Source: Klebsiella pneumoniae
Lineage (GTDB): Bacteria > Myxococcota_A > UBA796 > SXON01
DNA length: 64,000 nt
Direction: 5' to 3'
Assembly (NCBI GenBank): GCA_945861635.1
Contig: CAMAWH010000003.1
Location: 118,608-182,607, forward strand
Shown: positions 26,735-43,578 of the stretch, in pieces
How the letters are laid out: every line of letters starts with the position of its first letter
Numbering within the stretch: position 1 is the first letter of the stretch
Position numbers and translations under genes: made by a program
The notes under the pieces: generated by a model
Databases searched by the model: none
What the model saw: the letters and a program-made list of their open reading frames with translations, nothing else
Told to the model about the DNA's origin: nothing

Positions 26735-28654
26735 ATGCTTCGACTCCCGACCGCGCTCGCCCTGTTCCTGACCGGATGCAACGCCGGTGACAACAAGCTC
26801 TCCGTCTACAACGCAGCGCCCGTCGTCTCCATCACCAATCCCCCGAACGGCAGCGCCGCCAAGGAAGCGGAGTTGGTGACGCTTTCCGGCCTGGTGGACG
26901 ACAACGAGACACAGCCGAACGAATTGCTGATTCAATGGACGAGCACGCTCGACGGCGTCTTGCAGGAAAACGAACCGGCGAGCAATGACGGTATCACGAC
27001 GACTTCGACCGGAGCACTTACCGTCGGTAATCACACGATCACGTTGTCGGCGACAGATGAGAGCGGCCTGCGCACGGAGAGCGTGATTCAGCTCACCATT
27101 GAGGACGTGCCCGACAACCCGACCGTTCAGATCGTGCATCCCGTCAGCGGCGAGAGTGGAAGGGATGACGGGGAGTACGAGTTCGCCGTTCTGGTCGCGG
27201 ACGAGCAGGATGACGCGACGACGCTGGCCGTGGTCATGGCGTCGGACGTGGACGGTGAGATCTGCACGCCAACGCCGGATGCCGCCGGAGAGGCGCGGTG
27301 CTCAAAAACGCTGACACAAGGCGAGCATCACCTCACGTTCACCGTCACCGACAGCGATGCACTGACGGGGGTCGAGGAATTCCTCTTCACGGTCGCCAGT
27401 GGCAACGCCATCGACGACGACGAGGACGGTTGGACAGAGTTGCAGGGCGACTGTGACGACGCAAACGCAAACGCCAACCCGCGAATCACGGAGACGTACA
27501 ACGGCATCGATGACGACTGCAACAGCGTCATCGACGACCACACGTCGGCGTACGATGACGACGGCGACGGTCAGACCGAACTCGACGGGGATTGCGATGA
27601 CGACGACGATGAGGTCTACGCCGGCGCGGCTCAGGTTTGGGACGCGAAGGACAACGACTGCGACACGATCACCGACGAGGGCACGGATTACTACGATGAC
27701 GACGGAGATGGCTACCCGGAAATCGCCGGGGATTGTGACGATGGGAACATTGCGGCATTCCCCGGCGGCAGCGAAGTGGAAGATGGCGCGGACAACGACT
27801 GCGACACCCTCATCGATGAAGGAACCAACGCCTACGATGACGACGGCGATACCTACACCGAGAACGGCGGAGACTGTGATGACACCGACGACGACATCTA
27901 TCCCGGTGCCACCGAGGACATGCACAACTATGTCGATGAGGACTGCAACGGCGTCGCAGAGGAGGACTTTGACAGCGATGGCTACCTGACCCCTGCGACG
28001 GGCGGTGACGACTGCAACGACGGAGATGCCAGCACCCACCCGTACGCCTCAACAAACGAGAGCGATCCCGCAGATTGCACAACGGATGCAGACGGCGACG
28101 ACTACGGCGATTCATCGCCGGCGTCCGGCGCAGACGCGGGCACGGACTGTGACGACAGTGACGCCGATGTCAGCCCCGACGGCAACGAGGAATGTGACGG
28201 CGCGGACAACGATTGCGACGGCTCCACGGACGAGCAGAACGCGGACGGCTGCAGCGTCTATTACTACGATTACGACGGCGATGGATACGGCTCAGACAGC
28301 GTAACTGGGCGTTGCTACTGTGCAATCAGCGGGTACTACACCAGCGCATACGACACGGATTGTTACGACTACAACTCCAGCGCCAGTCCTGCCGCCACGA
28401 CATACTCCACGTCGCAACGTGGAGACGGCAGCTACGACTGGAACTGTGACGGTGTCCAGGATAAATATTGGAAGTCGTACGGCGGGGCATGTGGCGGCTG
28501 GCCGACGTGTGGCACAACCGTGGGTTGGACAGGAAGCTCCGCCCGATCCTGCAGCAGTTCGGGAACCTACTACCCCAGCGGCGCGTGCACGCTTCCCTTC
28601 CCGTACACGAGTTGCAGCGCGTCCACGTCAACGTATACGCAGAAGTGTTTGTAG
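26735..28654 (+). CDS. MopE-repeat (divided metal-binding motif) surface lipoprotein
   Basis: 639 residues. Lipoprotein signal MLRLPTALALFLTGC with Cys15, then two Ig/cadherin-like modules (PVVSITNPPNGS, PTVQIVHPVSGE). From about residue 225 there are around seven Asp-rich repeats of the form DDDGDGYxExxGDCDD...DNDCDxxIDEG, the 'putative metal-binding motif' of Methylococcus MopE. The last ~100 residues are a Cys/Tyr/Ser-rich cap (GGACGGWPTCGTTVGW). Likely a calcium- or copper-binding outer-surface protein. It is followed 198 bp later by a second MopE-repeat gene on the same strand. Confidence 0.85.
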   Translation: MLRLPTALALFLTGCNAGDNKLSVYNAAPVVSITNPPNGSAAKEAELVTLSGLVDDNETQPNELLIQWTSTLDGVLQENEPASNDGITTTSTGALTVGNHTITLSATDESGLRTESVIQLTIEDVPDNPTVQIVHPVSGESGRDDGEYEFAVLVADEQDDATTLAVVMASDVDGEICTPTPDAAGEARCSKTLTQGEHHLTFTVTDSDALTGVEEFLFTVASGNAIDDDEDGWTELQGDCDDANANANPRITETYNGIDDDCNSVIDDHTSAYDDDGDGQTELDGDCDDDDDEVYAGAAQVWDAKDNDCDTITDEGTDYYDDDGDGYPEIAGDCDDGNIAAFPGGSEVEDGADNDCDTLIDEGTNAYDDDGDTYTENGGDCDDTDDDIYPGATEDMHNYVDEDCNGVAEEDFDSDGYLTPATGGDDCNDGDASTHPYASTNESDPADCTTDADGDDYGDSSPASGADAGTDCDDSDADVSPDGNEECDGADNDCDGSTDEQNADGCSVYYYDYDGDGYGSDSVTGRCYCAISGYYTSAYDTDCYDYNSSASPAATTYSTSQRGDGSYDWNCDGVQDKYWKSYGGACGGWPTCGTTVGWTGSSARSCSSSGTYYPSGACTLPFPYTSCSASTSTYTQKCL

Positions 28655-28707
28655 CGGTCGCGCCGGCGGGCTTGGCGCGTTCGCCCCTTGCAGGTGCGGC
28701 GGGGGTC

Positions 28708-28719
28708 GTCGGTACCGAC
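28708..28719. repeat. 12-bp perfect palindrome between the two MopE-repeat genes
   Basis: GTCGGTACCGAC lies in the 198-bp gap and a near copy (GTCGGGTACCGTCG) is found about 125 bp further, just before the start of the next gene. It could be a regulator site; the role is not shown. Confidence 0.3.
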
Positions 28720-28852
28720 CGCCACGCGGACGCGTAGCGGCCCCAAACAACGCCCGTTACGACTCCCTGATTCTCGTAGTCGCACGCACGCCCGGTGCAG
28801 ACCGGTGTCGCGGAGGTAGCCACGGCGCCCGCGGTCGGGTACCGTCGCCGGC

Positions 28853-30994
28853 ATGTTGCTGTTCGCTGCCGCCGCCCTCGCCGCTGACGTGGAGGTGTTT
28901 TCGGACAACTTCAACTCCTCAGACACAACGTCGTTTTCGGGAACCACCGGGTGGTACACGGGCTACGCATCCGACACGTGGTCCACGAAAACGTACGGAG
29001 GCGTCTATGCAAAGACGGACGACTCGACGGGCACCTGGGGCTCGGGCGGCGCGGTGGACAACCACCTTGTCTACACCGGGGACAGTTGGGGAGAAACCAT
29101 CTTCGATGTGAGCATGTACCTCGGCGACAATGACGCCAGCGGCCTCGTTTTCCGCTATCAGGACGCTTCGAACTTCTACATCTTCATCACCGGATCCGAG
29201 TACGCGCCGGGCACCGGCACGGGTGCCTCCACGACGCGGGTCGGTTCGGCCCTCATGAGGGTGAGTGCCGGGAGCGCAACCGTGCTCGCAAGCCTGGCGA
29301 CGACATACACCCAGTATCGCAGCTACGACGTGGAGGTCGTGGCGAATGGATCGAGCCTGGAAATATGGTTCGACGACGACCGAAATGGCATCTTCGAGGC
29401 GGCCGACCTGATCCTTTCGGCCACGGACGCAACGTTCTCTACGGGAGAAATCGGGCTGTACTGCTTCAATAGCGGGGAATCGATCGCCGGTTGCTACTTC
29501 GACGAGGTGTACGTTTACCAGACCGACACCGATTCCGACGGTATTTCCGACGAAGATGACAACTGTGACGCGGTGGCGAACCCCACCCAGATCGACACCG
29601 ACGAGGATGACGTTGGGGACAGCTGCGATAGCGACTCCGACGGAGATGGATACGCAGCGGGGAGCACCGCCGCGGACGACTGCGACGACACCGACGACAC
29701 CGTAAACCCGGGCGCGACAGAAACTTGCGCGACCACCGTCGACGACGACTGCGATGGCTCGACCAACGACACCGGCGCAACCGGCTGCACCACCCGATAT
29801 TATGACTTGGACGCCGACACCTACGGCACGTCGACATCCCTGTGTACCTGCACCGCGTCCGGGTACTACACCGCCTCGCTCAAAACCGATTGTGACGACA
29901 CGGACGCGTCGGTTCACCCCGGTGCGTCGGAGACCTGCGACCTCGACGATGAAGACTGCGATGGCAGCATCGACGAGAGCGCCATCGACCGAACCACGTT
30001 CTATGACGACGCAGACGACGACGGCTACGGAGATTCGGCAACGGGCGCCCTGGCCTGCACCGCCGGCGTAGGCGAGGTAGCGGACAACACGGATTGTGCC
30101 GACGGCGACGCTGACATCTACCCTGGCGCCGTGGAACACTGTGACCTCGTGGACGAGGACTGTGACGAGGCGATCGACAACGACGCCATCGATCAGGTCA
30201 CCTACTACCTCGATAGTGACGGCGATTTGTTTGGCGACCCGACGACCGGCGTGGACGCATGCGCAGGCGAAACCGGCCAGGTCATCGACGACACCGACTG
30301 CGACGACACACGTGACACCGTTTACCCCGGCGCCATCGAGACGTGCAATCTGCTGGACGATGACTGTGATGGCACTGTCGACGCCCCCGACGCGATCGAC
30401 GCCATCACGGTCTACGCGGACGTGGACGGTGACGGCTTCGGCGATCCCGACGCACCGATGGACGTGTGTGACCCCCCGGAGGACACCACCGCGGACAACA
30501 GTGATTGTGACGATACGAACGCCGATGTGCATGCCGACGCCTCAGAGGTTGCCAACCGCGTGGACGACGACTGTGACGGCCGGCCGGACGACGGCTTGGA
30601 CACGGATGGAGATGGTCTGAGTGACGACGTGGAATTGCTCGACACCCTCACCGACCCCTACCTCCTCGACACGGATGGAGACACCCACAACGACGGTGAC
30701 GAAGTGACCGCGGGCACCGACCCGCTCGACCCCTTCGATCCGGGCTCCGATACCGGCGATACCGGAGCGGACACCGGCGACACAGGCACGGACACCGGGG
30801 CCGATTCCGGCACGGAGGACACGGCCGACACCAACGACTCCGCCCCGGGCGATACCGACGACGTTCCAAGCCTTCGCCGGGGTGGCTTCTACGGCGGCGC
30901 TTGCAACACGAGCGGTCACCCCGCAGGTCCGCCGAGGTGGGCAGTGCTCCCACTCGCGGCGTTGATGCTCCTGCTTCGACGGCGGCGCGCATGA
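28853..30994 (+). CDS. MopE-repeat / thrombospondin-3 protein with MYXO-CTERM-like tail
   Basis: 713 residues. A short signal (MLLFAAAALAADV) is followed by a ~190-residue lectin/LamG-like sandwich (SGLVFRYQDASNFYIF, YDVEVVANGSSLEIWFDD), a thrombospondin type 3 segment (DTDSDGISDEDDNCDAVANP), five MopE-type repeats, another TSP3-like segment, an Asp-Thr-Gly linker (DTGDTGADTGDTG) and a terminal GGACNTSG...ALMLLLRRRRA. That tail (Gly-Cys motif, helix, Arg cluster) is the MYXO-CTERM sorting signal, so the protein is likely processed and displayed on the cell surface. The stop overlaps the OmpA-family gene by ATGA. Confidence 0.85.
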   Translation: MLLFAAAALAADVEVFSDNFNSSDTTSFSGTTGWYTGYASDTWSTKTYGGVYAKTDDSTGTWGSGGAVDNHLVYTGDSWGETIFDVSMYLGDNDASGLVFRYQDASNFYIFITGSEYAPGTGTGASTTRVGSALMRVSAGSATVLASLATTYTQYRSYDVEVVANGSSLEIWFDDDRNGIFEAADLILSATDATFSTGEIGLYCFNSGESIAGCYFDEVYVYQTDTDSDGISDEDDNCDAVANPTQIDTDEDDVGDSCDSDSDGDGYAAGSTAADDCDDTDDTVNPGATETCATTVDDDCDGSTNDTGATGCTTRYYDLDADTYGTSTSLCTCTASGYYTASLKTDCDDTDASVHPGASETCDLDDEDCDGSIDESAIDRTTFYDDADDDGYGDSATGALACTAGVGEVADNTDCADGDADIYPGAVEHCDLVDEDCDEAIDNDAIDQVTYYLDSDGDLFGDPTTGVDACAGETGQVIDDTDCDDTRDTVYPGAIETCNLLDDDCDGTVDAPDAIDAITVYADVDGDGFGDPDAPMDVCDPPEDTTADNSDCDDTNADVHADASEVANRVDDDCDGRPDDGLDTDGDGLSDDVELLDTLTDPYLLDTDGDTHNDGDEVTAGTDPLDPFDPGSDTGDTGADTGDTGTDTGADSGTEDTADTNDSAPGDTDDVPSLRRGGFYGGACNTSGHPAGPPRWAVLPLAALMLLLRRRRA

Positions 30995-32580
30995 TGCTCT
31001 TCTGGGTTGGAGTGGCGGCGGCGGGCGGGATACCGGACGCGACGCTGAACGCGCAGGCATGGCGGCTGCCGGTCGACGCGAGTCGAACGCTGTGGGCCGA
31101 CGACGCCGGCGGTGCGCCCGGCTTTTCCACGCGGCTTGGACTTGGGTACATGAAAGACCCCTTCGTGTGGCAATGGCAGGACTCGGGTGAAACGGTTCCG
31201 ATCGTCGGAGATGTGCTCGGCATCAATGCGATAGCGGCCTACCGCATCTGGCGGCTCCGCGCGGGTGTGGACCTGCCGCTCTACCCGATAGCCAGTGGCG
31301 GCACCGCGAGCGGCGGCGGGATTGGCGACCTTGCACTCGACCTGAAGGGGGTCGTTTTGGACCCGACAACGGCGCCCATCGGCTTGGGTGTCACCGGGCG
31401 TTTCGCGTTTCCCACCGCGACGACCGACGTCCCGCTCGGCGGAGACGGCGTAGGATGGGAAACGGCGCTGGTGGCCGATAAAACACTCGGTCCGGTGTTG
31501 CTCGCGGCGAACGTCGGCGCACGCGGAATGCCCGGAGCAGCACTTGGGAACGTGACGACGACCCAACAATTCACCTTTCGGCTCGGCGGCGGGTTCGCGG
31601 CGTCGGACGCCGCCGGAATCTCCCTCGATCTGGCCGGTGCCCTTTCGCTGGACGACCCTGCGAACGCCGCCGGCTCGCCGGTCGAGGCCATGGTGGGCGG
31701 ATGGTACCATCTGAGTGCGCCGTTGACGCTGCGTGCCGGGGTGGGCCGGGGGTTGACCCGTGGAATCGGCGCACCGGCGTTCAGAGGTGTGCTGGCGCTC
31801 AGTTGGGAGCCGGGGAGCGCACCGCCGGCGACCAGCAAAGTGACCACAACGACGACGACGACACCAACCAAGACGCCAACCAAGACGCCGGCCAAGCCGG
31901 CGGTCAAAACAGCGCCCGACACGCCGCCACCACCTCGCGGCATCATCGTCATTGACGGCACCTCCAAAGAGCCGCCAGGGACGGTGCGAATCGACGTGCG
32001 AGATGAAAACGGTGCTGCCATCGATGCCACCGCGACGTTTGACCAGCATCCGGCGGCACCGATTGGCGGCGGTCGCGCGAATGCCCGCGTCGCCACCGGG
32101 ACGTGGACGGTCGTGTTTCAGGCCGCCGGGCACATCCCACAGGCGAAAACGATCACGGTAGAAAGCGGGAAGTCGGTCGATGTCAAAATCAGCCTCAAGG
32201 TCGCGAGGGTCACCATCACCTCAGACCGCCTGCAACTTGCCGGGAAGATCGCGTTCGAGGGGAGCAAGATTCGCACGGAGTCGGTTGCACTGATGGACGA
32301 GGTATTGGCGACGATCCAGGCTCACCCCGAGATCACGGGCATTCGCATTGAGTCGCACACCGACAGTCGCGCTTCCGTAGAGTATGCGCTGACGCTCTCC
32401 GGCGCTCGAGCAGCCGCGATTCAGGCGTACCTTGTACAGCGCGGACTCTCGCCCGACCGCTTCGTTGCGGCCGGGTATGGCGGCAGCCGACCGCTGATCA
32501 AGACCGACAACGAAGCCGCGTGGGAGCGCAACGATCGCATCGAGTTCGTCATCACGGAGCGGATCGGCACGGGCGGATAG
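30991..32580 (+). CDS. OmpA-family outer-membrane protein
   Basis: 529 residues starting MMLFWVGVAAAGG at 30991 (the track start at 30901 reads back into the previous gene). An N-terminal ~250-residue region has alternating barrel-like strands (FSTRLGLGYMKDPF, GLGVTGRFAFPTATTD, FRLGGGFAASD). A Thr/Lys/Pro linker (TTTTTTPTKTPTKTPAKP) and a PEGA-like beta domain (GTVRIDVRDENGAAID, GTWTVVFQAAGH) precede the OmpA peptidoglycan-binding domain (KIAFEGSKIRTESVALMDEV, IRIESHTDSRASVEYAL, LSGARAAAIQAYL, GGSRPL, RNDRIEFVI). It is co-translated with the MYXO-CTERM protein and may anchor or export it. Confidence 0.9.
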   Translation: MMLFWVGVAAAGGIPDATLNAQAWRLPVDASRTLWADDAGGAPGFSTRLGLGYMKDPFVWQWQDSGETVPIVGDVLGINAIAAYRIWRLRAGVDLPLYPIASGGTASGGGIGDLALDLKGVVLDPTTAPIGLGVTGRFAFPTATTDVPLGGDGVGWETALVADKTLGPVLLAANVGARGMPGAALGNVTTTQQFTFRLGGGFAASDAAGISLDLAGALSLDDPANAAGSPVEAMVGGWYHLSAPLTLRAGVGRGLTRGIGAPAFRGVLALSWEPGSAPPATSKVTTTTTTTPTKTPTKTPAKPAVKTAPDTPPPPRGIIVIDGTSKEPPGTVRIDVRDENGAAIDATATFDQHPAAPIGGGRANARVATGTWTVVFQAAGHIPQAKTITVESGKSVDVKISLKVARVTITSDRLQLAGKIAFEGSKIRTESVALMDEVLATIQAHPEITGIRIESHTDSRASVEYALTLSGARAAAIQAYLVQRGLSPDRFVAAGYGGSRPLIKTDNEAAWERNDRIEFVITERIGTGG

Positions 32581-32636: not shown

Positions 32637-33605
32637 CTATGGGCGGCGACTGATTTCGACGTTGCCGCCGAAACAGGTCACCGGCGCTTCGAGCGGGTAG
32701 GCCACTCCAACGGTCGTGCACATCTCGTCGGGATACCCAAGCGTGTCGTCCGTCTCGTTGTGCCACGCACACGTCGTCGTAAACACGTCATGCGCCGCCG
32801 CGGGGAAGGCGTCCGCCGCATAATTTTCGATGATGGGTGTGTCGCGATATTCGGGCTTCCACGGGTTCACGTCGTAGACCGTGCTGACGTTGGAGCCCAC
32901 CGTCAGATCGACGCGATAGCTGGACCCAAGCCCGTGCATGTGCCCCATCAGGGAGAGGACGTGGACATCGGTGCCAAACTCACAGCCAAACGTCGTGGTG
33001 TAGTCTGCTCCTGGGGGGATGGCGAGGCCGCCAGCGTCGAACTGGTAGGCACTTGCCCACTGCTCGACCTCATCCACCGCTACGAAGCCGAGCGAGATGG
33101 CGCTGCGCGCCCAAAGCGTCTCCTTTCCGGAGTTTACGAAATGCGTATCCACGACCCAACGTTGGCCCGACGACAACCGCATCGCAATGCCTTCGGGCAA
33201 TTCCAGCCAGTCCTTGTCCACGGTTTCGGGCGTCACGCCCACCCCCTCGAACAGTGGCGTGTAGTTGCTTTGCATCCCCCCCGCGCCCTCGGGGCACGGA
33301 ATCATCGTCCCATCTGGGTATTCATCGTCCGACACGGCCTTCAGTTGATTGTGGTGGCTGAATTCGGGCGCGTTCGTCTCCGGGTACATGTACACGACGC
33401 CCACATCCGGGCCGGAATAGGTGCCGTAATAGCACTCAAGTACCGTGGAATACGGCGGCACCTCGATGAGCGGCGTCAGCATGGCGGCACCCGGGTCGGG
33501 AGCGGGCGTCGGCGTCCATGCCTCCGCTTCCGTGCGCGCGTCCGCGGCCTCGCCGGTATCGGCGGCCCGCATCGAGCTGGCACAAGCGAGGATGAGAAGG
33601 GTCAT
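32637..33605 (-). CDS. Copper type II (PHM/DBH-like) monooxygenase lipoprotein
   Basis: 322 residues with lipobox LILAC (Cys8). All six copper ligands of peptidylglycine alpha-hydroxylating monooxygenase are recognisable in order: His84-His85 (SHHNQL) and His155 (VDTHF) for CuH, His222 and His224 (GHMHG) and Met295 (PDEMC) for CuM. The DEMC motif matches the animal enzymes closely. Six further Cys residues could form disulfides. Family members hydroxylate C-H bonds using ascorbate and O2; the substrate here is unknown. It is convergent with the OmpA-family gene and near MopE-repeat proteins. Confidence 0.82.
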   Translation of the reverse strand: MTLLILACASSMRAADTGEAADARTEAEAWTPTPAPDPGAAMLTPLIEVPPYSTVLECYYGTYSGPDVGVVYMYPETNAPEFSHHNQLKAVSDDEYPDGTMIPCPEGAGGMQSNYTPLFEGVGVTPETVDKDWLELPEGIAMRLSSGQRWVVDTHFVNSGKETLWARSAISLGFVAVDEVEQWASAYQFDAGGLAIPPGADYTTTFGCEFGTDVHVLSLMGHMHGLGSSYRVDLTVGSNVSTVYDVNPWKPEYRDTPIIENYAADAFPAAAHDVFTTTCAWHNETDDTLGYPDEMCTTVGVAYPLEAPVTCFGGNVEISRRP

Positions 33606-33670: not shown

Positions 33671-34621
33671 ATGGCCCGCGTCCGCCAGCCCCTGACCTCG
33701 CGCCACCATGCGCCGGGGTTTGTCGCGAGCTTCGGTCTGCACGTCGTCGGGCTGTTGATCGTGCTTCTCGGCCGCGCTGCCGCTGAGCCTGCACCCCCCT
33801 CCGCTGAAGGAGATGCCGGCCTCGCGGAAACGGACGCCCCCGGCGGGGAGATGGTTGCCGTCGCTTCGTCGGACGAGCCAACCATCAATATTCGCAGCAT
33901 CGGGATCATCGACGACACCGTCCCGGCGGCCGCGGCGCCGCCCTCAGAGACGCCACCAACGCCGCAGGCGCCGACGGAGGACGTTCCCCTTCCTGCGGTG
34001 GCGGAGGTTGCGCCCATCGCCGACCCGCCCCCGCCGACCCCGGAGCCAGCGCCCTCTCCTGCCACGCCGCCGGCCGAGGTCTCGCCTCCCCCCGCCGACA
34101 CCACGGGCAACGCCGACGTGCCACCGCCTCAGGACGACGTAACGGAGTTGGCGGAAAAGACGAAGCAACCCCGCGGTCGGAAGGGCCATCGGCCTCCTCG
34201 CGCCGGCACAGGGGATGACAAGTGTCCGCCGCCGGTGAACACCATCGAAGCCCTGGATGAATCACACTTCCTCATCGAGCGGCCCTTCGTCGAATACTAC
34301 GCGCGCCACATTCCCGAGTTGATGAAGCTTGGCAGCGTTTGGGCACACAAGGGCAAGGACGGCAAGCCCGACGGCTTCCGGGTTGGGCTTGCCAAGTGCA
34401 GCGTCCTGCGGCAGGGCGGGCTGCGCAGCGGCGACATCGTGCACGACATCAATGGCATCCAGATCGATAGCCTGCTGGAGGCCGTCGGCGCGTATTTCAA
34501 GCTGCACAAAGAGGAGCACATCGAGGTGCGTCTGGCCCGTCGCGGGAAGCCGGTCGTGCTGTCGTTTGAGATTCAGCAGAAGTTGGCGAAGAAAGGAAAG
34601 GGGAAGACCAAGGGGAAGTAG
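33671..34621 (+). CDS. Inner-membrane protein with PDZ / GspC-like domain
   Basis: 316 residues. One N-terminal membrane helix (FVASFGLHVVGLLIVLLG), then ~120 residues of low-complexity Pro/Ala/Glu (PPPPTPEPAPSPATPP) that could cross the periplasm, then a C-terminal domain with ALDESHFLIERPFVEYYARH and a PDZ segment (VLRQGGLRSGDIVHDINGIQI, EHIEVRLARRGKPVVLSFEI) resembling the type II secretion protein GspC or a TonB-like periplasmic linker. The end is a Lys-rich tail. No other T2SS gene is nearby. Confidence 0.7.
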   Translation: MARVRQPLTSRHHAPGFVASFGLHVVGLLIVLLGRAAAEPAPPSAEGDAGLAETDAPGGEMVAVASSDEPTINIRSIGIIDDTVPAAAAPPSETPPTPQAPTEDVPLPAVAEVAPIADPPPPTPEPAPSPATPPAEVSPPPADTTGNADVPPPQDDVTELAEKTKQPRGRKGHRPPRAGTGDDKCPPPVNTIEALDESHFLIERPFVEYYARHIPELMKLGSVWAHKGKDGKPDGFRVGLAKCSVLRQGGLRSGDIVHDINGIQIDSLLEAVGAYFKLHKEEHIEVRLARRGKPVVLSFEIQQKLAKKGKGKTKGK

Positions 34622-34957: not shown

Positions 34958-37342
34958 TCAAGGGCTCGACCTCGCAATGCGGAAGCCGAGGAAATTAATG
35001 GTGCCGCTCGGAGTGTAGTAGCTGCGGGAGGACACGGACGCGAGGTGCGCTTCGCTGGACCAGGCGCCACCGCGAAGAACATGGCCGGCGGTCGATGCCG
35101 GCCCCGGTGGATTCTCGGCGGGCGACACGCTGTAGTAGCCGCTGTCGTACCAGTCGTTCGTCCACTCGTGCACATTCCCGCTCATGTCATAGAGCCCCGA
35201 TGCGTTCGGCGCCAGCGTCGCCACCCTGTGGGCGTAGGTGACCAACGAGTAGGCCGTCTCAAGGGTCCAAGCGACATCGGCCGCCGTGTTCGACCCCGAG
35301 TACGTCGTGTCCTGGTCCGCCCGCGCCGCAAACTCCCACTCGGCCTCCGTCGGCAGCCGGTAGCCGGGGCAGGCGTAGGGGTCTGCGAGGTAGGCCGCCG
35401 CGAGGTCCGTGCCGTCCGAAAGGTAGCAGTTGGCCAGCCCCTCCACCGTCGAGAGCGCGTTGGCGTACTGCGCCGCGTCGTACCACGAGACGCTGTCCAC
35501 AGGGCAGTCCGCGGTCGTCGTCGAGGTCGTACACGGGTAGCTCGGCAGGCTTGTGTACGTCCACCCCACTCCCCCGCTCCACGACTCCCACTGCCCCCGC
35601 GTGATCTCCGTCTCCCCGATCCAGAAGTCGTGGGTGAGGGTCACGTCGTGGTCGGTGTAGGCACTGGTCGGGTCTCCCGCGCCACCGCCCATCGTGAATG
35701 TCCCGGCTGGAATCCCGATCATCCGCGAACCATACGTCGTTGTGTAGTCCTCCGGGCAGGGGGTGTCCACGCCATCGCAGTCGTCATCCACACCGTCGTC
35801 GCACACCTCGACGGCTCCCGGGAACGCCGCACCCTCCGTATCGTCACAGTCCTCGTCGTTGGTGACGTAGTCGCTGGGCGAATCGCAGAACACCGCCGCA
35901 CCGGCAGCATCGCCATAGCCGTCGGCGTCACTGTCGAGCCAGACGGTGGTGCCTCCCGTCGCGGCGGTGTCGTCGTCATCGGCCAGTCCGTTGCAATCCT
36001 CGTCGATGTCGGCGCCATCGCACGTTTCGGTCCCCGCGGGACTCACATCGTCACGGGTGTCATCGCAGTCCGTGTCATCCGCGACGTAGCCGATGGGCAC
36101 GTCGCAAGCCGACGCACCGCTCGCCGCGTCCCCGTAGAGGTCTCCATCCGCGTCGGCGTACCAGACGTCCGCGTCCACGCTGTCGGCGTCTCGCGTTTCG
36201 CCGTCGCAGTCGGTGTCTGCGGTGTCGCACGCTTCCGCCGCGCCCGGATGGACGCCGCCATCGGCGTCATCGCACTCGATGCACGCCGCGTACCCATCGC
36301 CGTCCCCATCGACATACGCGACCGCTCCATCGCAATCCGCGTCCACGTTCACGTCGCACGCCTCCGCCGCACCGGGGTGGACGGTGGCATCGGCGTCATT
36401 GCAGTCGTCCGGTTCCGCACCGTAGTCGTCGGGTTGGTCACACGCGATCTTGTCCGTAGAACCGGTGATTCCGTAGCCATCCCCGTCGAGATCGAGGTAC
36501 CAGGTCGCCGCGTCCACGGCATCGTCGTCGATGCCACCATTGCAGTCGTCATCCCCCCCGTTGCACGACTCGATCGCGCCGGGAAACACGGTCGAATCGC
36601 TGTCGTCACAGTCGTCGGGGTACGGGCCGTAGCCTGCGGGCGCGTCACAGGCCGTCTTGTCCGTCGTGCCGCTCACGCCGTAGCTATCGCCGTCATCATC
36701 GACATACCAGGTGGGCTCACCCACCGCGTCTTCGTCCGCCTCCCCCGAGCAATCGTCATCCAGCCCGTTGCATGTCTCGTCGGCGTTCGGATGGATCGTC
36801 GCAACCGCGTCGTCACAATCGCCGCTGGCCACGGCGGCGCCCGCAGGGATGCTACAGGCCTGCACCGACGCGTCTGAGTTGCCGTAGCCGTCCAGATCGC
36901 CGTCCGTGTAGAAGGTCGATCCGTTGACGGGATCGTTATCGAGGGTGTCATCGCAATCCTCATCGACGCCGTCACAATGCTCGTCGGCCCCGGGATGGAT
37001 GTCCGCACTGCCGTCGTCGCAATCCGTCGCGTCTGCCACGAACCCGGCCGGCGCATCGCAAGCGGATTGTGCGCTTCCCGCATCGCCGAACGAGTCGCCA
37101 TCGGCATCCGCGTACCAGGAGGTCGGCCCAATGACAGCGGCGTCCGCGTCGTCACAATCGTCGGCCGTTTCGACGTACCCGCCGGGAGCCTCGCATTGCT
37201 CGACGGTGGTCGTAGCGACACCCGCGCCGTCTCCATCGTCATCGAAGTAGAACGTCTTGACCGTGCAGGGCTTCGACCCCTCCGGCGGCACCGCGGAAAT
37301 GCAAGCCGAAGCAAGAAGAAGGAGCAGCGACGGTCGGAGCAT
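34958..37342 (-). CDS. MopE-repeat lipoprotein with C-terminal formylglycine-generating-enzyme (SUMF1) domain
   Basis: 794 residues from MLRPSLLLLLASACIS (lipobox, Cys14); the track start 60 codons upstream is not supported. Residues about 35-530 hold roughly eight MopE-type Asp-rich repeats (WYADADGDSFGD...DCDDGSADIHPG). The last ~230 residues are an FGE/sulfatase-modifying-factor fold: MIGIPAGTFTMGG, WIGETEITRGQWE, PVDSVSWYDAAQYANAL, GYRLPTEAEWEFAARA, MSGNVHEWTNDWY, VLRGGAWSS, GFRIA. The Cys pair needed for formylglycine formation is not visible near the RGG motif, so it may be a non-catalytic binding version. No sulfatase is near. Confidence 0.88.
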   Translation of the reverse strand: MLRPSLLLLLASACISAVPPEGSKPCTVKTFYFDDDGDGAGVATTTVEQCEAPGGYVETADDCDDADAAVIGPTSWYADADGDSFGDAGSAQSACDAPAGFVADATDCDDGSADIHPGADEHCDGVDEDCDDTLDNDPVNGSTFYTDGDLDGYGNSDASVQACSIPAGAAVASGDCDDAVATIHPNADETCNGLDDDCSGEADEDAVGEPTWYVDDDGDSYGVSGTTDKTACDAPAGYGPYPDDCDDSDSTVFPGAIESCNGGDDDCNGGIDDDAVDAATWYLDLDGDGYGITGSTDKIACDQPDDYGAEPDDCNDADATVHPGAAEACDVNVDADCDGAVAYVDGDGDGYAACIECDDADGGVHPGAAEACDTADTDCDGETRDADSVDADVWYADADGDLYGDAASGASACDVPIGYVADDTDCDDTRDDVSPAGTETCDGADIDEDCNGLADDDDTAATGGTTVWLDSDADGYGDAAGAAVFCDSPSDYVTNDEDCDDTEGAAFPGAVEVCDDGVDDDCDGVDTPCPEDYTTTYGSRMIGIPAGTFTMGGGAGDPTSAYTDHDVTLTHDFWIGETEITRGQWESWSGGVGWTYTSLPSYPCTTSTTTADCPVDSVSWYDAAQYANALSTVEGLANCYLSDGTDLAAAYLADPYACPGYRLPTEAEWEFAARADQDTTYSGSNTAADVAWTLETAYSLVTYAHRVATLAPNASGLYDMSGNVHEWTNDWYDSGYYSVSPAENPPGPASTAGHVLRGGAWSSEAHLASVSSRSYYTPSGTINFLGFRIARSSP

Positions 37343-37518
37343 TTCACATCGTAGCGCGTCGGCAAGCGGCGTGGCAAGCGGGCGCGTGACTGGAACTACG
37401 CAGGCGACCGCGCCCCGCGGCTCCCAGGGGGCCGGCGGCCGGGAGCTGCTCTGCTGGAATCCGGGGTCGGAGGCGCTGGGACGCACACCTCGGCTGCGCT
37501 TCCGGGCGCGCGAATGGG

Positions 37519-38112
37519 TCAAGATCCGCGGGCCCGCCCTCCGATCGCCGCCATCCGCGCCGCGACCTGGGCCTCGGGCAGCTCCAGTTCCAAAAGATCG
37601 ACCTCGGGATCAACGAGCGCGGCGTCGAACAGGTCTCCGAGGCGGCGGACGACGGTCGCAGCATCATCGAGGTCTCGGTCCCGCGTCGAGAGCGCTTTCA
37701 TGAGCACGAAGTCCTCCGCCGTGACGATGCGAATGCTTGCTCCCCGCAGCGGTGCCTGAACGGATCGATCCATCACCCCTCGGGCGAATCGGGCGCTTCG
37801 CGGTCGAACGAGGTCGATGGTGTTGAGGCCCGTCGTCTCCGCGCCTCCAAGCACCGTGATTCGGCTCAGGGAGAGTCCGCCGAACACAACATCCACGAAC
37901 GCGACGTGCGTTGTAGCACCGGCGTGTTCGAGTGCGACCCTGGCAACATCGACGACGTCCCCGACGACCGCGAGATCGGCATCACGGGTCTCGCGCGCCT
38001 CCCCATAGGCAGCGAGGAGGAGCCCGCCGTACAGCGCATACTCAACCCCAGCCTCTTCAAAGGCCTTCGCCGCGAGGATCGCGAGCGCTGTCGGATCGGT
38101 CAGATCGATCAC
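37519..38112 (-). CDS. Nucleotidyltransferase-fold protein
   Basis: 197 residues from a GTG at 38112 (VIDLTDPTALAILAAKAFEEAGVEYALYGG). The Gly-Gly and DADLAV motif (REtrDADLAVVG) is the pattern of DNA polymerase beta-like nucleotidyltransferases of the AbiEii/DUF6036 kind. EDFVLMKALSTRDRDLDDAATVVRR follows as in that family. The residues before 38112 in the track belong to another frame. It may be part of a toxin-antitoxin or defence pair, but the partner is uncertain. Confidence 0.7.
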   Translation of the reverse strand: MIDLTDPTALAILAAKAFEEAGVEYALYGGLLLAAYGEARETRDADLAVVGDVVDVARVALEHAGATTHVAFVDVVFGGLSLSRITVLGGAETTGLNTIDLVRPRSARFARGVMDRSVQAPLRGASIRIVTAEDFVLMKALSTRDRDLDDAATVVRRLGDLFDAALVDPEVDLLELELPEAQVAARMAAIGGRARGS

Positions 38113-38629: not shown

Positions 38630-39736
38630 CTACCGCGCCGGCCTCTCCGCCACCAACTCAAGATCAAACCCGAGGTCGCTCGACGCGACGCTGGCCTGAT
38701 GGACCTCCACCGCGATCGTGTTCGCGCCCTCGACAAGCGTGGCAGGATCGATGTCGTAGCGCCAATACGCCTCCTCGTTGACGCCGCTGGTACTGACCGA
38801 CGCGAGCGTCGTATCCGTGACATCCCCCGGCGCCATGTTCACGCGCACCAACTCGGCACCGTTCACGTACACAACGGCGCCGTCATCGCGAAGGAGATTT
38901 ACGTACGCCTCCGTCACGGCAGCCACCGCGCGCAGCTCAACGGCGGCCCGATAATAGGACGTCAGGAATTTGTTGTTCTCGTCGGGCCCGAAGCCAAGCG
39001 CCGTGACCTGATAAGCGTCGCCATACCCAAGTGGCCCCGGACCCGCGGCCCACAGGCTATCGTCAAAGCCCGCTGCATTCCAGCCCGCCGGCGCAGCGCC
39101 CTGGTCGTAGTACCGCCAAGTGCTACCCCGTGGAATCGCCACCTCCACATCCTCCGGTAACGCGACGTTGGACGCCCCCGGTGTCCCGCGAAAGGACGTA
39201 GAAAAGCACCCCTCGCCCACACAGCAATCGGGCACCCGGGCGACAGAGAAGTCCGGAGGCACGGCACCATACGTCACCTCGCTGCCCCGCCCATCCGGCG
39301 CGTAGAGGGTGACCGTCCCCCCGGCGCTCGCCAGAGTGGCGGCCACGTGCGCGCCCAGGAGGTCGACCAAGCCATCCGCCCACAGCAGGAGGTACCCGCC
39401 CGCGGGCACCGCCAACCCATCCGATACCTTCGTCTTCGGTCGGTCCTGCGCCTTGTCACCCACAGCCCAACCGTCGAGCGACACCGCCGTGTCGCCCGGA
39501 TTGTGCAGCTCCACCCAGTCGGCGTATGCGCCAGTCTCATCGGCGACCACCGCCTCATTGTCCGCCATGAATTCGTTGATGCAGAGCTCCAACGGAGGCG
39601 GCGGAGGCGTATCGGTATCCGTCGAGCCACTATCGCGGACCCCGGAGTTCGCCGTGCGGTCGGCCGCGCGCTCCACGCCATCGGCGGCCACGTGAAACTG
39701 GCCCGAAGCGCACGCCATCATTGCGAGAACCAGCAT
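38630..39736 (-). CDS. Lamin-tail-domain (LTD) surface lipoprotein
   Basis: 368 residues from MLVLAMMACASG (lipobox MMAC). Residues about 50-190 are a lamin tail domain (LCINEFMADNEAVVADETGAY, ADWVELHNPGDTAVSLDGW, GGYLLLWADG, TLASAGGTVTLYAPDG, RGTPGASN). A second beta-sandwich with a galactose-binding-like look follows (WRYYDQGAAPAGWNAAGFDD, VNLLRDDGAVVYVNGAEL, LVEGANTIAVEVHQ). In many bacteria LTD modules are fused to CotH kinases; here a separate CotH gene lies 4 bp upstream, so they probably work together at the surface. Confidence 0.88.
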   Translation of the reverse strand: MLVLAMMACASGQFHVAADGVERAADRTANSGVRDSGSTDTDTPPPPPLELCINEFMADNEAVVADETGAYADWVELHNPGDTAVSLDGWAVGDKAQDRPKTKVSDGLAVPAGGYLLLWADGLVDLLGAHVAATLASAGGTVTLYAPDGRGSEVTYGAVPPDFSVARVPDCCVGEGCFSTSFRGTPGASNVALPEDVEVAIPRGSTWRYYDQGAAPAGWNAAGFDDSLWAAGPGPLGYGDAYQVTALGFGPDENNKFLTSYYRAAVELRAVAAVTEAYVNLLRDDGAVVYVNGAELVRVNMAPGDVTDTTLASVSTSGVNEEAYWRYDIDPATLVEGANTIAVEVHQASVASSDLGFDLELVAERPAR

Positions 39737-39740
39737 TCCG

Positions 39741-41036
39741 CTACAGGCCCCACCACGAGCGCATCGTGTCGTTTCGCGTGGCCACCCAACTGCGCATGTA
39801 CTCCTGCCATCCGGGAATGTCCGCGGCCGCACACTCCCGGCGCGGATCGGCGACGGCCAGATCGTTCGCCAGAACGATGTACGCCTCCAGCTTCCCGGGC
39901 AGATCGAGGGCCTCCACCGCGGGAATCAGCTCCGCCATCGCCGCCTTCTGAGCCTCCAAACACGCCGCATCTCGCCAACACGCTGCCGCCACCGACCCGC
40001 GCGGCGTCGCCCAATTCATGCCCCAGTCGTAGTCGTTGAGAAAACCATAGTCCAGATCCCAAGGGAGAATCTCGGCGCGGCCATCCTCCGGATCAAAGTA
40101 GACGCGGTAGTTGTTGGTGTTCAGCGCGTAGCCGTCATTGTGCCCAACCCACTGCTCCGCGGCAAGTTCGCGATGCACCTCGGTCCAATCGATCACGGCA
40201 TCACTCACCGGCGCCCACTGATCGGTGCCGGCAGCCGTCAGCACCGCATTCGACACACCCGCGATGTCGGCGTGCGCAACGTCCGTCCCTTCTTCCAACT
40301 GGTACAGCTCATCCACGCCGAGCCCGAAATCCAACAGCGTGTAATTGTATCCCCCGTACCAAACGTATTTTCCATCATACAGGTTGCCATCGGGCAGCGT
40401 ATAGTGCCGCTTGAGAAAGCGATCGTCCGGCGTTTCCAGTACAACGTAGAGTCCGTAGGCGACACTGTTCACCGTGACGGCAGCGTACGCGGTACGCAGC
40501 GACGGCACGCCGACCGCGGCAAACACCTGATACCCCAGCATCTCCTTCAGGTAGGAACAATCCACCACCGCGTTGTTGAGCGAGAGCTCCTCGAGCCCGT
40601 AGAAGCGTTGGTCGGGCGTGAATTCATTGAAGCTGATCTTGAACTTGGGTTTTGCCGTGACTACCCGAAAGGAGCCAATCTTTCCGCGCAGGCGCACACC
40701 GATGTTCGGCATTTCCACCCCGTCGTACTGTAGATCGGCCAGGGCAAACGTGTACGGGCTGGCCTCCAGGGCGGCGAGCGAATCCGGCGGGATGCGGATG
40801 TCAACCTGATGAACAACCGTATCGTCAAAAACCCAGTCGTCGAGCCCCTCGTCCGACAATCCGGGAGCTTCCTCCTCGGTGACTGGCATCTCTACCGCCT
40901 CCGAGTCCCGCCCGCCAACCTCCTCGGCCGTGTCCTCACTTCCGTCCGTTGCGAGTCGGGGACTCGGGCCGTCCGCGCCCACGCTCGTGACCGTCTCTGA
41001 GCAGGCCACCACCAGACTCAGTGCAAAGCCGCCCAC
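39741..41036 (-). CDS. CotH-like kinase lipoprotein 1
   Basis: 431 residues, lipobox LVVAC then an acidic linker. CotH spore-coat kinase features: GVRLRGKIGSF, the Lys in PKFKISFNEF, LEELSLNNAVVDCSYLKEMLGYQVF, YGLYVVLETPDDRFLKRHY, NNYRVYFDPEDGRAEILPWDLDYGF with the metal-binding Asp. CotH proteins are atypical protein kinases that phosphorylate surface proteins. It overlaps the next CotH gene upstream by about 19 bp and precedes the LTD gene by 4 bp. Confidence 0.9.
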   Translation of the reverse strand: MGGFALSLVVACSETVTSVGADGPSPRLATDGSEDTAEEVGGRDSEAVEMPVTEEEAPGLSDEGLDDWVFDDTVVHQVDIRIPPDSLAALEASPYTFALADLQYDGVEMPNIGVRLRGKIGSFRVVTAKPKFKISFNEFTPDQRFYGLEELSLNNAVVDCSYLKEMLGYQVFAAVGVPSLRTAYAAVTVNSVAYGLYVVLETPDDRFLKRHYTLPDGNLYDGKYVWYGGYNYTLLDFGLGVDELYQLEEGTDVAHADIAGVSNAVLTAAGTDQWAPVSDAVIDWTEVHRELAAEQWVGHNDGYALNTNNYRVYFDPEDGRAEILPWDLDYGFLNDYDWGMNWATPRGSVAAACWRDAACLEAQKAAMAELIPAVEALDLPGKLEAYIVLANDLAVADPRRECAAADIPGWQEYMRSWVATRNDTMRSWWGL

Positions 41037-42313
41037 GCGCGCACCTCCGCTGGGCGCGTCGCCAGCAGGTTTTCGACGCAGGCGGCGTGCTCCTCGAAGT
41101 CCGCAAGCGAATAATGGCTGCGAGGATCGCTCGCGACATACGGTTGGATCAAGTCATGGATTTCCTGCAAGCGACCGACAGCATCCAGGGTTTCAAACCA
41201 GTCCGCGCGCGCCGCGACATAGGTCGCCAATTCGCGGACACAACTGGCACTCTGGTGACACCGAGCCGCTACCAAGCCTTCGATGTAGGTATCTGGATCC
41301 ACGGCATACTGATTGCAATGGGGATAGGACCACGGTCGGTACGAAAATCCAAGATCGGCCGACCACGGAATGAACGCCCAGTTGTCCGCAATTGGCTGGT
41401 GGTACAGGCGATAGTTGGACCGGTCATAGCTGTAACTATCCCAATGTCCCAACAGGATCTCCATCGCCAGAAAGTCGAAGAATCGCGCATGATCCATGTG
41501 AGGCAGAAAGGCGTCATCCCACCTCTCCCCCCGCGTCACCGCGTCCGCACACAGCGCTTCGAGGGCGTCATCATTCCCCTCGTCGTCCTGCTCCTTCTCG
41601 AAGCAGGATGGCGCGTCAAAGTCACAATCCTGATAGTCATTTTCGTACATGTTCCCGTTGGGTTCGTCGAACCAGATCGCCAGGAACTCTCGGGTCGGCG
41701 GTTCGACCACCGTGTAGAGTCCATAGTCGGTCGTATTGATGGTCAGGTGCGCATAGGAGAGCCGCGCGGCGGGCAATCCCGCATCCCGCCAGAATCCGTA
41801 GGTGAGCGCCTCGGACATCATCATCGGGTCGAGGATTTGGTTGTGCAGGTTGAACTTGGAGTGGCCGAGCACCTCCGCACCGTCCACCAGGAATTCGGCG
41901 TCTACCTTGAACGACGGCTTGTCGTTCAGTTCCGTCCACGTGCTGGACCCCTTGATGTGGATGCCGACGGTGAATTGCTCTCCATCAATATCGACTCCCG
42001 CTTCCGTGTAGCGCTCAGGATTGCGCCGGAGATCGTCGAGTCCGTCACCCGAGAGCGTCAAGGTGATCTCGTGGACGAACCCTTCTACGTACAATCTCTC
42101 CTCCCCCTCGTCGGGCGGATCCGTATCTCCCGTGTCGCCGCTATCCTTCCCGCCCGAGGTGTCCCCCGGGATCGATTCCGCACTATCGGCGTCTCCCGGG
42201 AGGTCCTGCGACCGGTCGGCGCCGCCTCCAGACGAAAGCACGACGGGGCTGGCAGTACAAGCGAGGGCGAAGAGCACGGCCCCACTGTACCCGAGCGGAT
42301 GCGAACCCGTCAT
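41018..42313 (-). CDS. CotH-like kinase lipoprotein 2
   Basis: 431 residues from MTGSHPLGYSGAVLFALACTAS; lipobox LACT and a SGDTGDTDPPDEGE linker. CotH elements: GIHIKGSSTW, the Lys in KPSFKVDAEF, LNLHNQ-like HSKFNLHNQILDPMMMSEALTYGFW, YGLYTVVEPPTREFL, SNYRLYHQPIADNWAFIPWSADLGF. In the DxD-type motif the first Asp is Ser (PWSAD) while the second is kept. The ATGA overlap with the beta-helix gene upstream places it in one transcript with that gene and CotH 1. Confidence 0.9.
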   Translation of the reverse strand: MTGSHPLGYSGAVLFALACTASPVVLSSGGGADRSQDLPGDADSAESIPGDTSGGKDSGDTGDTDPPDEGEERLYVEGFVHEITLTLSGDGLDDLRRNPERYTEAGVDIDGEQFTVGIHIKGSSTWTELNDKPSFKVDAEFLVDGAEVLGHSKFNLHNQILDPMMMSEALTYGFWRDAGLPAARLSYAHLTINTTDYGLYTVVEPPTREFLAIWFDEPNGNMYENDYQDCDFDAPSCFEKEQDDEGNDDALEALCADAVTRGERWDDAFLPHMDHARFFDFLAMEILLGHWDSYSYDRSNYRLYHQPIADNWAFIPWSADLGFSYRPWSYPHCNQYAVDPDTYIEGLVAARCHQSASCVRELATYVAARADWFETLDAVGRLQEIHDLIQPYVASDPRSHYSLADFEEHAACVENLLATRPAEVRAWAALH

Positions 42314-43578
42314 AAGCCCGAGGTCCACCCTGCGGCCCAGTCTTCGGTGCCGAACGCTCCAACATGATTGGAGACGCTGGCGTCCGCGTTGGCGGGGTCC
42401 AGAGCCGGCGAACCAGTGGCCGGCATGTACCCCGACAACATCGGATCCGCCGAGGTGATCATCGCCCCGTACATTGTTGCACTTACGCTGTCACACGTCG
42501 CATCCCCGCCATGCACCATCAGGTGGGAGAGCGTTGCGGTCACCGTGGCGTCGGCGTTCACACCGCAATCCACGCCGGCCAACAGCACGTTGGCGAATAC
42601 CCCGCCGCTGCCGTCCTTCAGGGCGAGCCCGGCCGCCGTGGCGCCGTGGATGGTCACATTCGTCACCCGTGGCGCGGAGCGAGGTTCCGAATCCACGCTG
42701 GCAACGTCGGGATCGCGATTTCGCCCGTCGATGCCGTTTCCACCACTCGTCCGAGCATACAACTCGGAGATGGCACCGGCAAAGCCATCCTGCCACTGCA
42801 CCGCCTCATCCGGCGCATCGAGCGCAATGATGCGATTGAGCGAAACGGTGCCGCCCGAAAGGTGGATGGCATCGTCCGCCACATCGCTGATCTGCACGTG
42901 GTCGATCGAGGTGCCAAGCCCAACATCGGTCAATTGCAGGCCATCCACCTGGTACGTGAGCGACGAGTCGTGGACATGCTCGATCCGCACGTACTGGACC
43001 ACGCCGCTGGAGTCGTTGGAATCCCCGCCCACGTTGTCCGCGCCCGGCGCAAGCCCAACCACGCGAAGTCCGCCCCATCCCTCCCCGTCCTTGGTTCCTG
43101 CGAGTGAGGTGAAAACAATCGGCGCGCCCGCCGTGCCTACGGCGTTTATCCACGCACCGGCCCGGACGTTGAGCGAGCCGGCATCCTTGCCATCGGCGGG
43201 AGGCATGCCGATCACGGTTGTACCTGGGAAGATCGTCAACGTGACGCCCCGCTCCACGCCAATCCACCCCAAAAGGCGAACGCTGTCCTGCGGGCACCAA
43301 GTCACGTCTTCATAGAGTGCGCGGGTCAGCTCAAACGACCGCGCGGCGCCGGAGCAATCCGTGGGCTCGGCGCTATCGCCGGAGTCGGCGTCCGCGTCGG
43401 CGTCAGCGTCCGCGTCGGCGTCCGCGTCGGCGTCCGCGTCGGCGTCGGCATCGGCGTCGGCGTCGGCATCTGCGCTCGTATCCGCATCATTTTGGTCGCG
43501 ATGGCCGTCGTCGTCGTCATCGTCGTCGCGGGGGCCTTCCGGGGAGTTTGCGCAGGAAAACGCGAGGAGGAGGATCAT
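42310..43578 (-). CDS. Right-handed beta-helix lipoprotein with (Asp-Ala)n linker
   Basis: 422 residues from MILLLAFSCANS (lipobox FSC). After the lipid anchor come PEGPRDDDDDDDGH, then about 15 consecutive Asp-Ala pairs, then SGDSAEPTDC. From about residue 75 the repeats GVTLTIFPGTTVIGM, AGAPIVFTSLAGTKDGEGWGG, VVQYVRIEHVHDS, TSIDHVQISDVADDAIHLSGG and VTNVTIHGATAAGLALKDGSGG form a parallel beta-helix of the pectate-lyase-like/polysaccharide-adhesion kind. It is the first gene of the minus-strand CotH operon (beta-helix, CotH 2, CotH 1, LTD) and starts 34 bp from the divergent CotH 3 gene. Confidence 0.87.
   Translation of the reverse strand: MILLLAFSCANSPEGPRDDDDDDDGHRDQNDADTSADADADADADADADADADADADADADADADSGDSAEPTDCSGAARSFELTRALYEDVTWCPQDSVRLLGWIGVERGVTLTIFPGTTVIGMPPADGKDAGSLNVRAGAWINAVGTAGAPIVFTSLAGTKDGEGWGGLRVVGLAPGADNVGGDSNDSSGVVQYVRIEHVHDSSLTYQVDGLQLTDVGLGTSIDHVQISDVADDAIHLSGGTVSLNRIIALDAPDEAVQWQDGFAGAISELYARTSGGNGIDGRNRDPDVASVDSEPRSAPRVTNVTIHGATAAGLALKDGSGGVFANVLLAGVDCGVNADATVTATLSHLMVHGGDATCDSVSATMYGAMITSADPMLSGYMPATGSPALDPANADASVSNHVGAFGTEDWAAGWTSGL
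43386..43470. repeat. Hexamer-based tandem repeat encoding (Asp-Ala)n
   Basis: About 85 bp of GCGTCG/GCGTCC/GCATCG units on the plus strand encode the Asp-Ala linker of the minus-strand beta-helix lipoprotein. The unit is a multiple of 3, so copy-number change would alter linker length without a frameshift. Confidence 0.8.

Follow-up and report, generated by a model that had tools for sequence, protein, structure and literature searches.

A predicted bacterial lipoprotein with the copper ligands of PHM and DBH points to a divergent branch of the dicopper monooxygenase superfamily

Results

The locus and its gene

The window (the whole 64,000-nucleotide stretch of DNA that was analysed) carries on its minus strand an open reading frame, also picked by a codon-usage gene call, for a protein resembling two animal enzymes: peptidylglycine monooxygenase (PHM), involved in peptide amidation, and dopamine beta-hydroxylase (DBH), which forms noradrenaline. 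It lies between a convergent and a divergent neighbour, and the features considered in this work are as follows.

30991..32580, plus strand: convergent neighbour, OmpA-domain protein
32637..33605, minus strand: putative PHM/DBH-like dicopper lipoprotein, 322 aa (from ORF, family and fold)
32718..32729, minus strand: DEMC, with M295 as the putative CuM thioether ligand (PHM M314) and C296 (PHM C315)
32769..32771, minus strand: C279, predicted disulfide with C296, equivalent to PHM C293-C315 (pairing taken from PHM)
32934..32942, minus strand: H222-M-H224, putative CuM ligands equivalent to PHM H242/H244 (site alignment)
32982..32984, minus strand: C208, predicted disulfide with C311 (32673-32675), equivalent to PHM C227-C334 and DBH C390-C503 (pairing by analogy)
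33141..33143, minus strand: H155, putative third CuH ligand equivalent to PHM H172 (site alignment)
33147..33149, minus strand: D153, in the position of PHM Q170 (site alignment and clade comparison)
33294..33296 and 33432..33434, minus strand: C104 and C58, predicted disulfide equivalent to PHM C81-C126 (pairing taken from PHM)
33351..33356, minus strand: H84-H85, putative CuH ligands equivalent to rat PHM H107/H108 (site alignment)
33582..33605, minus strand: signal MTLLILA and predicted lipidated C8, ultra-short (from C8 conservation and the upstream stop)
33671..34621, plus strand: divergent neighbour with a weak PDZ domain match

The codon positions given for DEMC and H84-H85 were checked against the sequence. 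All the residues that a preliminary description of this DNA had named as copper ligands (HH84-85, H155, H222/H224 and M295 in DEMC) were present at the stated residue numbers, and both the CuH set (H84, H85, H155) and the CuM set (H222, H224, M295) were complete.

Among the genes around the target, three carry PF11617 (Cu-binding_MopE) repeats (26735-30994 and 34958-37522, on either side of it), one of them fused to an FGE-sulfatase domain. A role for these genes in delivering copper was considered but not adopted, as they adjoin only some members of the family. Further along, two adjacent CotH-kinase-domain proteins (39741-42328) lie beside a lamin-tail-domain protein (38630-39832).

A predicted ultra-short lipoprotein signal

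The claim of the preliminary description that the protein is a lipoprotein was supported at the N-terminus, where the lipobox cysteine C8 was invariant in all 34 sequences of the alignment described below, and lipidation of C8 is predicted. The nearest upstream in-frame stop lies at most 11 codons before C8, so that the signal has seven residues as read, and a normal long one is not possible. The target genome (G000) contains one LspA match and four Lgt matches (PF01790; G000:C31:7760, C1:224746, C4:44364 and C14:67667). Lipoprotein-like signals had a median length of 9 residues in this family of genomes versus 14 in others, and over all loci 84 N-termini had a lipobox within 12 residues, against 5 in shuffled N-termini. 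Ultra-short signals were also seen at loci L082-L121, many of them without lysine or arginine; in 11 cases an in-frame stop upstream leaves no room for a longer signal.

Homology through the relatives

Searched alone, the target protein gave no match in Pfam or NCBIfam, and its sole phmmer match in the PDB was a sortase-like protein at chance level (E 1.1). Since Pfam was empty for the target alone, its placement in the superfamily depends on its relatives, which were represented by two sequence sets: A1, an alignment of the target with 33 relatives (34 sequences), and A4, a profile of canonical PF01082/PF03712 proteins from the same genomes as the subfamily. The A1 homologues are about 28-47% identical to the target, a range at which the conservation of six ligands (H84, H85, H155, H222, H224 and M295, each in 34/34) is, judged from the alignment, far beyond chance. 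The cysteines C58, C104, C208, C279 and C311 were likewise invariant, and C296 was present in 33 of the 34. The comparison with the Pfam models PF01082/PF03712 proposed in the preliminary description therefore gave a divided answer, negative for the target alone and positive through the family, as 15 of the 34 sequences matched PF03712 (Cu2_monoox_C; best 8e-10). The best match of the A1 profile in the PDB was human DBH (4ZEL, E 0.004), in an alignment that pairs the HxH and EMC motifs of the two. The A4 HMM matched both rat PHM (2.8e-28) and the target itself (2.4e-18), and hhalign aligned A1 with A4 at a probability of 99.6 (E 1.1e-24). In-frame TGA codons in some homologues were considered as possible selenocysteine and rejected, the TGA read through in L024 and L027 being the ordinary stop codon directly after the end of the family's sequence.

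Predicted fold

AlphaFold2 run on the single target sequence gave a pLDDT of 37, and with the A1 alignment it reached a pLDDT of 88.6 and a pTM of 0.84. When the latter model was searched against the PDB with Foldseek, ranks 1-31 were taken by DBH and PHM structures alone (E 3.6e-13 to 2.3e-9), with matches spanning about 300 columns, and the block-mean pLDDT exceeded 90 around the ligands. The structure-prediction check thus recovered the PHM/DBH fold, in support of a PHM/DBH-type double jelly roll, and the fold match together with the ligand-region pLDDT argues, at the level of a model, against the ligands lying far apart. The TMq to PHM and DBH was moderate (0.53-0.64).

Comparison with PHM and DBH

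The double jelly roll is common to rat PHM (1PHM/1OPM) and the target (Foldseek E about 5e-12; about 16% identity), and all six copper ligands of PHM are kept in this bacterial, predicted lipid-anchored protein. Human DBH, with 17-18% identity in the fold alignment, was the best match by both profile and fold. The PHM cysteines C81, C126, C227, C293 and C315 align with C58, C104, C208, C279 and C296 of the target, and C503 of DBH aligns with the last one, C311. Three of the five PHM disulfides have their cysteines in the target; C47-C186 and C114-C131 are missing, and no equivalents of C114, C131 and C186 were found in the site alignment with rat PHM. The six cysteines therefore correspond to three core disulfides, given the pairings that we take from the known PHM/DBH structures, and the disulfide pattern that the preliminary description had regarded as the protein's own is a subset of the known one.

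The substrate site differed. R240, N316 and Y318 of rat PHM, which we take to be the residues that bind the C-terminal carboxylate of the peptide, are replaced by M220, T297 and V299 in the target, at positions that vary across the family. Y79, replaced by L56, is lost in the whole subfamily of the target. Since the peptide-binding residues are replaced, the name PHM should refer to the chemistry of the target and not to its substrate: the alignments point to a copper chemistry that has probably been retained and to a substrate that is probably other than peptidylglycine, which speaks against the substrate suggested by the preliminary description. PHM Q170, placed by PMC6123673 in a network of waters that also involves Q272, H108 and the peptide, is replaced by an aspartate (D153).

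The canonical PF01082/PF03712 proteins of the same genomes share the ligand set and the lipoprotein N-termini with the target. Most of them carry an N-terminal domain of the CxxCH haem c type, with CxxCH and an MP motif invariant, and keep Y79 and Q170; glutamine stands at the Q170/D153 position in most canonical relatives. The subfamily of the target lacks a haem domain, and Pfam does not detect the target itself, unlike its canonical paralogues.

Distribution

The preliminary description had regarded such enzymes as known mainly from animals, and a review of metalloproteomes from 2020 (PMC7435645) lists PHM and DBM for eukaryotes alone. A search of the open-access full-text literature found no paper on a bacterial PHM or DBH. 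In the genomes themselves the supposed rarity outside animals did not hold: PF03712 proteins were found in 52 of 58 related genomes, and relatives of the subfamily in 160 of 379 genomes from the phylum. A four-sequence profile search of the genome contigs returned 11 loci, and the target genome holds seven subfamily members (>340 bits), one intermediate form (on contig C20) and three canonical proteins with CxxCH. The intermediate class, comprising L012 (G000:C20:58909-59796) and L079, is PHM-like, lacks CxxCH and scores about 130 bits on the target-family profile. Canonical PF03712 proteins with an N-terminal CxxCH (L001, L002, L004 and L053-L081), a fusion of haem c and dicopper monooxygenase, are common in the order.

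Operon partners in the sister genes and the clade of the target

A comparison of the surroundings of 45 family members at 41 loci showed a conserved gene order in a sister subfamily, with one or two PHM-like genes between an upstream partner, c0, and a downstream partner, c1. The c0 gene was found upstream of 26 and c1 downstream of 24 of the 45 members, with both at 22, and the gaps between genes went down to -4 or -8 nt. The c0 product, about 160 aa long, gave no match in Pfam and represents a new lipoprotein family (e.g., L084, L085, L090, L094, L095 and L099). Over 56 whole genomes, 29 of the 30 c0 matches adjoined a PHM-like gene; the thirtieth was a partial match on another contig, in a genome where c0 is cut off by the end of its contig, and is probably the other half of that same gene. 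The c1 product is likewise a lipoprotein, of about 130 aa, in which CX4CH is invariant and an MP follows further on. It is weakly similar to a Planctomycete cytochrome c, and its profile is weakly similar to the N-terminal CxxCH domain of the canonical paralogues. Since cytochromes resembling c1 are also encoded at other places in these genomes, its association is less exclusive than that of c0. The tandem pair at G000:C9:16775-18685 (L084) belongs to a c0-PHM-PHM-c1 operon. In many relatives, rnhB and nuoA/nuoB-like genes are found close to such an operon.

The operonic sisters, including the pair on C9, are about 33-35% identical to the target and have the same ligands and cysteines. They differ in being co-operonic with c0 and c1 and in having a glutamine before the third CuH ligand, whereas the target has neither partner and an aspartate at that position. 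In a maximum-likelihood tree, the target belonged to a nine-member clade (support 100/99). All nine members have Asp at 153, and none adjoins c0 or c1; outside the clade, the equivalent residue is Gln, with the exception of one His, and most members have partners. In a search for clade-specific columns, D153 was the only sharp one. No c0 or c1 gene was found around the target, and CxxCH was absent from the called genes of the window. With its closest orthologues, the target shared no synteny beyond the MopE-type repeats. The target is an orphan paralogue of its sub-branch, standing outside the operon.

Discussion

To judge from the alignments and the predicted model, the target genuinely belongs to the PHM/DBH superfamily of type II (uncoupled) dicopper monooxygenases, as one of its divergent members. 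The reading that we favour, and consider likely, is that of an exported, lipid-anchored PHM/DBH-type dicopper monooxygenase which acts on a substrate that is probably not a peptidylglycine and receives its electrons from a cytochrome c. In such an enzyme, O2 would be activated at CuM, a second electron would arrive through CuH, and hydroxylation of a C-H bond of the substrate would take place either in the periplasm or at the outer membrane. Because a haem c domain is fused to the enzyme in one branch and a cytochrome c gene shares its operon in another, haem c rather than ascorbate is suggested as the electron donor. The target, with neither a partner gene nor a fused domain, would use a cytochrome encoded elsewhere. 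The moderate TMq values, the loss of Y79 in the subfamily, the lack of Pfam and NCBIfam matches for the target itself, and the absence of a cytochrome next to it and of CxxCH among the called genes of the window weigh against this reading.

Among the alternatives, the most serious is a lipoprotein that binds, stores or senses copper with both sites and has no monooxygenase activity. The loss of the PHM substrate-site residues, the nearby MopE-type repeat genes and the number of paralogues in one genome, which could suit binding proteins, would all fit such a role. We nevertheless regard it as unlikely, as the invariance of the M295 thioether and of both histidine sets is what selection on O2 chemistry would be expected to leave, and the association of the relatives with haem c domains points to a redox function. 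Assignment as an amine or phenethylamine hydroxylase of the DBH, TBH or MOXD1 kind draws on DBH being the best match in both sequence and fold, and appears improbable given that the DOMON domain of DBH is missing from the target, as is its dimerisation domain (no Pfam matches for the target). A peptidylglycine alpha-hydroxylating monooxygenase in the strict sense, serving the amidation of secreted peptides, would likewise have the PHM fold and all the copper ligands, as found here; with the carboxylate-binding residues and Y79 replaced, we give it marginally less credence still.

The favoured monooxygenase reading can be extended, tentatively and with somewhat less than even confidence, to the family as a whole. 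A bacterial branch of PHM/DBH would use haem c in place of ascorbate, with a surface-anchored monooxygenase working together with a CX4CH cytochrome c lipoprotein and c0. The target would then be a side branch in which the neighbourhood of CuH was rewired (Q to D), without dedicated partners and with a new substrate.

If confirmed, a family that is common in one phylum and has haem c partners would provide models in bacteria for the uncoupled dicopper mechanism. Which electron donor serves these enzymes physiologically would become a directly testable question with such a haem c-associated bacterial family, and the finding would also bear on the origin of the animal neuropeptide and catecholamine enzymes.
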